From the IMG/VR virus record IMGVR_UViG_3300032294_000850, positions 1 through 21,409 of that record: DNA of 21,409 nucleotides. One strand, written 5' to 3'. The notes beneath the pieces were generated by a model, which was given only the letters and a program-made list of their open reading frames with translations, was not told the DNA's origin and did not search any database. This document shows positions 7,360-7,540 of this stretch, in pieces (the first letter of the stretch is position 1; each line of letters starts with the position of its first letter). The position numbers and the translations under genes are program-made. This DNA is from a virus.

Positions 7360-7389
7360 TTTACTGATAGCGAAAATGCACTTTATAGC
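7360..7389 (+). promoter_or_regulatory. Candidate promoter for pqqA
   Basis: TTTACT (7360-7365), 18-nt spacer, TATAGC (7384-7389), each matching 4 of 6 consensus bases. A second -10-like GATAAT at 7391-7396 lacks a good -35. The perfect 10-bp palindrome GCAATATTGC (7403-7412) lies between this site and the SD and could be an operator. Weak evidence, but pqqA is on the opposite strand to its neighbours and needs some promoter. Confidence 0.35.
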
Positions 7390-7435
7390 TGATAATGAAA
7401 TGGCAATATTGCATTAATTAACCGAGGATAATATT

Positions 7436-7507
7436 ATGTGGACAACTCCAGCAGCTACAGAAATGCGTTTTGGCTTTGAAGTCACAATGTACGTAATGAA
7501 CAAATAG
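7436..7507 (+). CDS. pqqA: PqqA, pyrroloquinoline quinone precursor peptide
   Basis: A 23-codon gene, ATG 7436 to TAG 7505-7507. The peptide begins MWTTPA, continues through [11 protein letters not shown] and ends VMNK. This matches PqqA in length, in the MW..PA start, in the R-x-G-x-E-V-T-x-Y core and in the exact spacing of Glu15 and Tyr19, the two residues that PqqE cross-links to build the cofactor PQQ. GAGGA at 7424-7428 is 7 nt upstream of ATG. It is a plus-strand gene lying between two minus-strand genes, and no pqqB-F gene is present, so the phage would supply only the peptide to host PqqB-E. Likely an auxiliary metabolic gene supporting PQQ-dependent alcohol or methanol dehydrogenase during infection (inference). 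Tiny ORFs arise by chance, but this many matching positions plus the SD make chance unlikely. Confidence 0.9.
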   Translation: [23 protein letters not shown]

Positions 7508-7516
7508 TGTGTATGG

Positions 7517-7540
7517 GGATGCTCCTAAAAAGGAACATCC
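7517..7540. terminator. Hairpin after pqqA, shared with the 3' end of the opposing SSB-like gene
   Basis: GGATG (7517-7521) pairs with CATCC (7536-7540), and TCCT (7523-7526) with AGGA (7531-7534) around an AAAA loop; one C-A mismatch separates the two stems. It starts 10 nt after the pqqA stop. There is only a pyrimidine-rich tail and no real T-run, so it may stabilise 3' ends or terminate weakly rather than act as a full intrinsic terminator. Confidence 0.5.

Follow-up and report, generated by a model that had tools for sequence, protein, structure and literature searches.

A 23-codon pqqA gene in methylophages and its probable role in supplying the PQQ precursor peptide

The pqqA locus

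The stretch of DNA analyzed here (hereafter, the window) is a virus record of 21,409 bases. It harbors a short ORF, beginning with an ATG at 7436 and closed by a stop codon at 7505–7507, which is flanked by phage genes of the opposite strand (Table 1). Both profiles of PqqA were matched by this ORF well above their cut-offs: PF08042 with 40.3 bits (cut-off 21.1, E 3e-10) and TIGR02107 with 38.8 bits (cut-off 20). Its 23 residues fall within the size range of PqqA (~20–29 residues, including an N-terminal leader), and Glu15 and Tyr19 form the E-x-x-x-Y motif located near the C-terminus. In PqqA, these are the two residues that become cross-linked by PqqE. Moreover, the peptide is, residue for residue, the PqqA of Methylophilaceae (77 host matches), and the same peptide is encoded with 100% identity by the phage P19250A. 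Judging by its sequence, the ORF is confirmed as PqqA, the PQQ precursor peptide. A chance ORF is ruled out by the profile matches, the identity with the host peptide, the invariance of residues 15 and 19, and a conservation that ends together with the ORF (see below).

Table 1. Features of the window, with positions counted from its first base
Feature	Position	Strand	Evidence or remark
pqqA, 23 codons	7436–7507	+	peptide [23 protein letters not shown]; PF08042 and TIGR02107 above cut-offs
Shine–Dalgarno GAGGA, 7 nt to ATG	7424–7428	+	sequence
Candidate −10 element GATAAT, without clear −35	7391–7396	+	tentative, by likeness to related phages
Hairpin between convergent pqqA and the 7525–7761 gene	~7515–7542	+	RNA fold
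Neighbor on the 5′ side of pqqA, divergent	7068–7337	−	ORF list
SSB-like neighbor of pqqA, convergent, acidic ...EEDVPF tip	7525–7761	−	sequence
YqaJ/RecE-like recombination exonuclease, flanking operon	7765–8316	−	PF09588, phrog_434
Large terminase	15688–16938	+	phrog_3717, E 1e-63; marks contig as phage
Portal protein	16938–18941	+	phrog_1216, E 2.9e-147
Major head protein	20282–21235	+	phrog_1328, E 6e-97

Contamination of the contig with host DNA is ruled out by the phage structural genes and by the presence of pqqA in isolate phages. For the two genes adjoining pqqA (7068–7337 and 7525–7761), searches against Pfam and PHROG returned no match; in the annotation of the metagenomic phage ctXG6705, the gene adjoining pqqA is a single-stranded DNA-binding protein. 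As a separate observation, the minus strand of the window encodes at 4482–5150 a small protein with a match to the central beta-clamp domain of DNA polymerase III (PF02767), and such a piece of a sliding clamp is unusual for a phage.

Signals around the gene

An earlier, sequence-only reading of this DNA had described a 23-codon PqqA gene with a GAGGA Shine–Dalgarno sequence, opposed in strand to its neighbors, with a possible promoter before it and a hairpin after it. The coordinates and both profile matches agree with the first part of this description; the minus orientation of both adjoining genes agrees with the second, and the hairpin was recovered by RNA folding. The promoter stood only in part: no consensus sigma-70 promoter was found upstream of pqqA in the window, but a GTATAAT box is kept in the phages carrying the gene at the same locus, and the window possesses GATAAT at 7391–7396.

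These signals were followed in two sets of sequences, i.e., the cluster of phages sharing the locus of the window and 35 contexts, defined as phage pqqA loci with unrelated flanks. Across the 35 contexts, a G-rich peak is situated 9–12 nt 5′ of the pqqA start. In the same-locus cluster, the (G)TATAAT box, mostly 35–56 nt before the ATG, is present in 51% of 68 sequences vs. 2% in shuffles; scanning the 35 unrelated contexts for sigma-70 promoters yielded no excess over shuffles. Since the conserved −10 box is confined to the window's own cluster, whose members are related, it is taken as moderate evidence, and the promoter proposed for pqqA of the window is tentative.

The downstream signals are found in both sets. 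The 50 nt following pqqA fold with z = −3.37 in the same-locus cluster vs. −0.1 at a control site, and over the 35 unrelated contexts the downstream RNA displays z = −2.3. Rho-independent terminators lie within 70 nt downstream of pqqA in 17 of the 35 unrelated contexts vs. 2.3% at random sites, and the hairpin of the window is a probable terminator for pqqA. One arm of this hairpin overlaps the last codons of the convergent SSB-like gene and its stop; the hairpin is apparently formed by the codons for the acidic DVPF tip together with that stop. In other phages of the same cluster, a different hairpin occupies this position after pqqA. The orientation of pqqA opposes that of both neighbors in 86 of 92 relatives sharing the locus. 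The layout of these signals indicates that pqqA is a stand-alone cassette with gene boundaries of its own.

Conservation and selection

Glu15 and Tyr19 are invariant in all 163 distinct phage loci, and the length of 23 residues is retained in each of them; some of these loci were fetched with a pattern containing EVTMY, but the set includes a subset fetched on residues 1–14 only and hence free of this bias. At the same time, the wobble positions vary across the 163 loci. Within the 35 unrelated contexts, conservation is confined to the ORF and ends at its two ends: pairwise identity averages ~0.6–0.85 within the ORF, where it follows a codon periodicity, and drops to a background of ~0.27 just past the stop codon. 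In the same contexts, pS (0.67) is far above pN (0.18). Based on these substitution patterns, phage pqqA is under purifying selection. As a gene of host origin residing in true phage genomes and kept by purifying selection, it is a candidate auxiliary metabolic gene, which would be expressed in infection and alter host metabolism.

Distribution of pqqA among phages

A tblastn search of 50,697 phage records revealed pqqA in nine isolate methylophage genomes of five types (P19250A, MEP301, Venkman, MEP401, MEP402, and four Melnitz strains), this tally not covering the methylophages MEP431–434, HIM624-A, Venkman EXVC038S, MG-MTP1, and RSA-MFP1. The gene was also found in ctXG6705 (Caudoviricetes), and inspection of whole records confirmed it in seven of seven cases. 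In the isolate records, pqqA either lacks annotation or is hidden beneath a wrong antisense ORF. Across the 50,697 records, pqqA in the absence of pqqBCDE was matched only in methylophages and the one metagenomic Caudoviricetes record. Two mislabelled Acinetobacter phage records matched the query as well; in the one inspected, Acinetobacter phage MD-2021a (CAKLQF020000010.1), the match belongs to a bacterial pqqABCDE operon accompanied by ppk, which looks like host chromosome, and the Acinetobacter matches were excluded. Queries with other PqqA types over the phage records retrieved no further phages, and the same was true of an alphaproteobacterial PqqA query.

Phages related to that of the window by their terminase are represented in 1,767 records, e.g., Pseudomonas phages at 54% identity. 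Beyond the methylophages, ctXG6705, and the Acinetobacter records listed above, these 1,767 records gave no pqqA match, so the gene tracks the host and not the terminase lineage. In IMG/VR, where all counts are lower bounds, a relative of PqqA is encoded by at least 589 stretches; among the terminase matches listed there, pqqA is present in ten of ten records longer than 35 kb, and the twelve relatives without it comprise one of 30 kb and otherwise shorter fragments. In the related phage genomes, E15 and Y19 are kept at the same locus. When the whole window was compared with phages by megablast, the sole similarity was the 72 bp of pqqA (94.4% to P19250A).

The other PQQ genes are missing from this picture. 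The sequence-only reading had noted the lack of any further pqq gene, and indeed no PqqB–E-like ORF was recognized in the ORF list of the 21.4-kb fragment, tblastn over 205 loci of related phages found no pqqB–E, and no PqqE above cut-off was found by profile in 48 whole phage records. A methanol dehydrogenase is present in one of the 48 pqqA phage records. This record (IMGVR_UViG_3300025120_009955, 72 kb) carries at 33989–38783 a PQQ-dependent dehydrogenase of the methanol/ethanol type (TIGR03075, 608 bits) and, immediately after it, a complete alpha subunit of formate dehydrogenase (TIGR01591, 885 bits); pqqA is located near 41.9 kb, 3 kb beyond the dehydrogenase genes. The joint presence of pqqA, methanol dehydrogenase, and formate dehydrogenase in one phage ties pqqA to methanol oxidation. 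The same phage also has NrdAB and, as recognized by eye, GroEL/ES, DnaK, IscU, peptide deformylase, and curli-like genes.

PQQ supply in the host

The host of the window phage, judging by the peptide and by the relatives of the phage, is presumably a member of Methylophilaceae, a family including OM43 and Methylopumilus, which feed on methanol and abound in aquatic habitats. The enzymes of PQQ synthesis would be provided in the infected cell by the host and not by the phage: pqqE was detected in 15 of 16 host genomes tested and pqqC in 14 of 16, the two genomes without PqqC above cut-off being possibly incomplete. Each Methylophilaceae genome harbors 1–12 nearly identical copies of pqqA, many of them apart from pqqB–E; orphan pqqA located away from pqqBCDE in hosts has been noted previously (PMC4109929).

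In Methylosinus, the level of pqqA RNA is 30–80 times that of pqqB–E and comparable to that of mxaFI (PMC3615186), as one would expect if the substrate is consumed. Cell extract fed with purified PqqA yielded PQQ with 70–80% conversion (PMC9851590). In Acetobacter, pqqAB alone increased PQQ by only 29% vs. approximately eightfold with the whole cluster (PMC7936290), so PqqA is not always limiting.

Proposed role and alternative explanations

The reading that we consider quite probable is that the phage supplies the substrate peptide of PQQ synthesis to the host PqqD and PqqE, thereby sustaining methanol dehydrogenase in the course of infection; the processing step is inferred. Under this scenario, a functional pqqA would have been acquired from a Methylophilaceae host and retained by selection. 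During infection, it would be transcribed as a short unit of its own, giving rise to the 23-residue precursor, which host PqqD would bind and in which host PqqE would cross-link Glu15 to Tyr19. Given the identity with the host PqqA, such binding and cross-linking of the phage-encoded peptide are likely. Host proteases together with PqqB and PqqC would then complete PQQ. One PqqA is consumed per PQQ formed while the enzymes turn over, so pqqA alone would be the cheapest way to maintain PQQ, and the maintained PQQ would keep the XoxF/MxaF methanol dehydrogenase and the energy supply of the infected cell going. That the phage feeds the PqqB–E of its host had been proposed in the earlier reading; the incidence of pqqE and pqqC in the hosts, the match of the peptides, and the phage combining pqqA with a methanol dehydrogenase all argue for it. 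The gene itself, the selection on its coding sequence, its invariant core and cassette structure, the restriction of named-phage matches to methylophages, and pqqC and pqqE in most host genomes are matters of observation; its expression, the processing by host enzymes, a higher PQQ level, and a benefit to the phage would follow if the scenario holds. The dose of pqqA added by the phage may be small, as the hosts already hold 1–12 copies.

Attachment or recombination at host pqqA, blocking of a receptor, a decoy or passenger function, and another use of PQQ all appear less likely than substrate supply. The 72 bp could be kept as DNA, i.e., as an attachment or recombination site matching the host pqqA; the whole-window megablast, which yielded only these 72 bp, the numerous and nearly identical host copies, and seven alleles exactly common to phages and hosts would fit such a site. 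However, the differences fall at wobble positions and leave no invariant DNA core, the similarity is bounded by the start and stop codons whereas attachment cores usually span part of a gene, the copies possess their own ribosome-binding site and in many cases a terminator, and no integrase was recognized in the window (ORF list and families searched). An attachment site was rejected on the grounds that the identity ends at the ORF, the wobble positions are free, and no integrase was recognized in the window, and we regard it as very improbable. Equally far-fetched is the closure of the receptor PqqU against competing phages by phage-raised PQQ. PQQ-bound PqqU does exclude the phage IsaakIselin in E. 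coli (PMC12124388), and large-genome Methylophilaceae possess a full-length relative of PqqU (37–39% identity); still, the streamlined hosts of the OM43/Methylopumilus type, from which methylophages have been isolated, lack a full-length relative in their smaller genomes and yet their phages carry pqqA, so this explanation was rejected for the streamlined hosts.

It is improbable, though somewhat less so, that the peptide is a decoy tying up PqqD/PqqE and lowering host PQQ, or a mere passenger that the phage picked up by chance. Phages often carry passengers, and the processing of the phage peptide is itself inferred; but a peptide that equals the substrate and keeps its two reactive residues in 163 of 163 loci would be processed, and a passenger would neither show such an excess of pS over pN across the 35 unrelated contexts nor be present in all ten of the listed long relatives. 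The most credible of the alternatives, albeit still unlikely, is that PqqA does feed PQQ synthesis but the benefit lies outside methanol dehydrogenase, e.g., in redox protection or in another PQQ enzyme. It would accommodate the phage contigs with other PqqA sequence types, perhaps from other hosts, and the rarity of methanol dehydrogenase (1/48 pqqA records). Against it stand the limitation of named-phage matches to methylotroph hosts and the lack of a pqqA match in the Pseudomonas phage terminase relatives, which are 54% identical.

Beyond the single phage, supply of PqqA could represent a general bottleneck in infected methylotrophs: unrelated phages (small tailed, Zobellviridae, and T4-like) would each have taken over the consumable substrate and left the enzymes to the host, making this 23-codon gene a near-core and mostly overlooked component of methylophages. 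The balance of evidence tips slightly towards this broader proposal.

Relation to known systems

Phage pqqA has already been described, once in detail and once in a list. Coutinho et al. (2020) reported PqqA along with methanol dehydrogenase in T4-like Lake Baikal viruses (PMC7678222). Like the window phage, their VP_266 is a Methylophilaceae phage that encodes PqqA, for which a supporting role in methanol oxidation was suggested; however, it is a single case of a T4-like metagenomic virus which also carries a methanol dehydrogenase, whereas the window phage is a member of a small non-T4 group, with no dehydrogenase seen in the fragment. The spread of the gene across phage types is not described in that paper, and formate dehydrogenase is not mentioned in it (PMC7678222). 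A 2026 list of viral auxiliary genes from reservoir sediment includes pqqA, pqqD, and pqqE (PMC13188868); these are virus-borne, as in the window, but are listed only as phosphate-solubilizing, and the main text contains neither anatomy of the loci nor conservation tests. No further description of phage pqqA was found in open PubMed Central papers, and the isolate methylophage papers checked do not mention the gene. As far as this open literature goes, it is new that pqqA is nearly a core gene of one group of methylophages and turns up again in unrelated groups, mostly unaccompanied by further PQQ genes; the invariance of the reactive residues and the cassette structure are also added here.

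The host Methylophilaceae encode the same 23-residue peptide (PF08042/TIGR02107), and orphan copies occur in hosts, too; in contrast to these copies, pqqA of the window lies between genes of a phage operon, on the opposite strand and with its own hairpin. P19250A, MEP301, Venkman, MEP401/402, and Melnitz carry the same unannotated gene at other genome positions, although in MEP301, Venkman, and ctXG6705 it resides in a neighborhood of recombination genes, as in the window.

If pqqA is common to unrelated Methylophilaceae phages, infection would routinely steer the initial step of methanol oxidation. Such a metabolic takeover would be economical, in that the stoichiometric peptide is supplied and the catalysts are borrowed. 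Cultured phage–host pairs exist, so the role is directly testable. As gene callers miss pqqA, virome counts of such genes are probably too low.

Two further observations concern the variety of phage pqqA. Six phage-like contigs encode PqqA of other sequence types (e.g., [49 protein letters not shown]), perhaps representing phages of hosts outside Methylophilaceae. In a 52-kb IMG/VR record related to the window phage, pqqA is present twice, at 1948–2004 and 40838–40894, both copies lying on the minus strand of the record.
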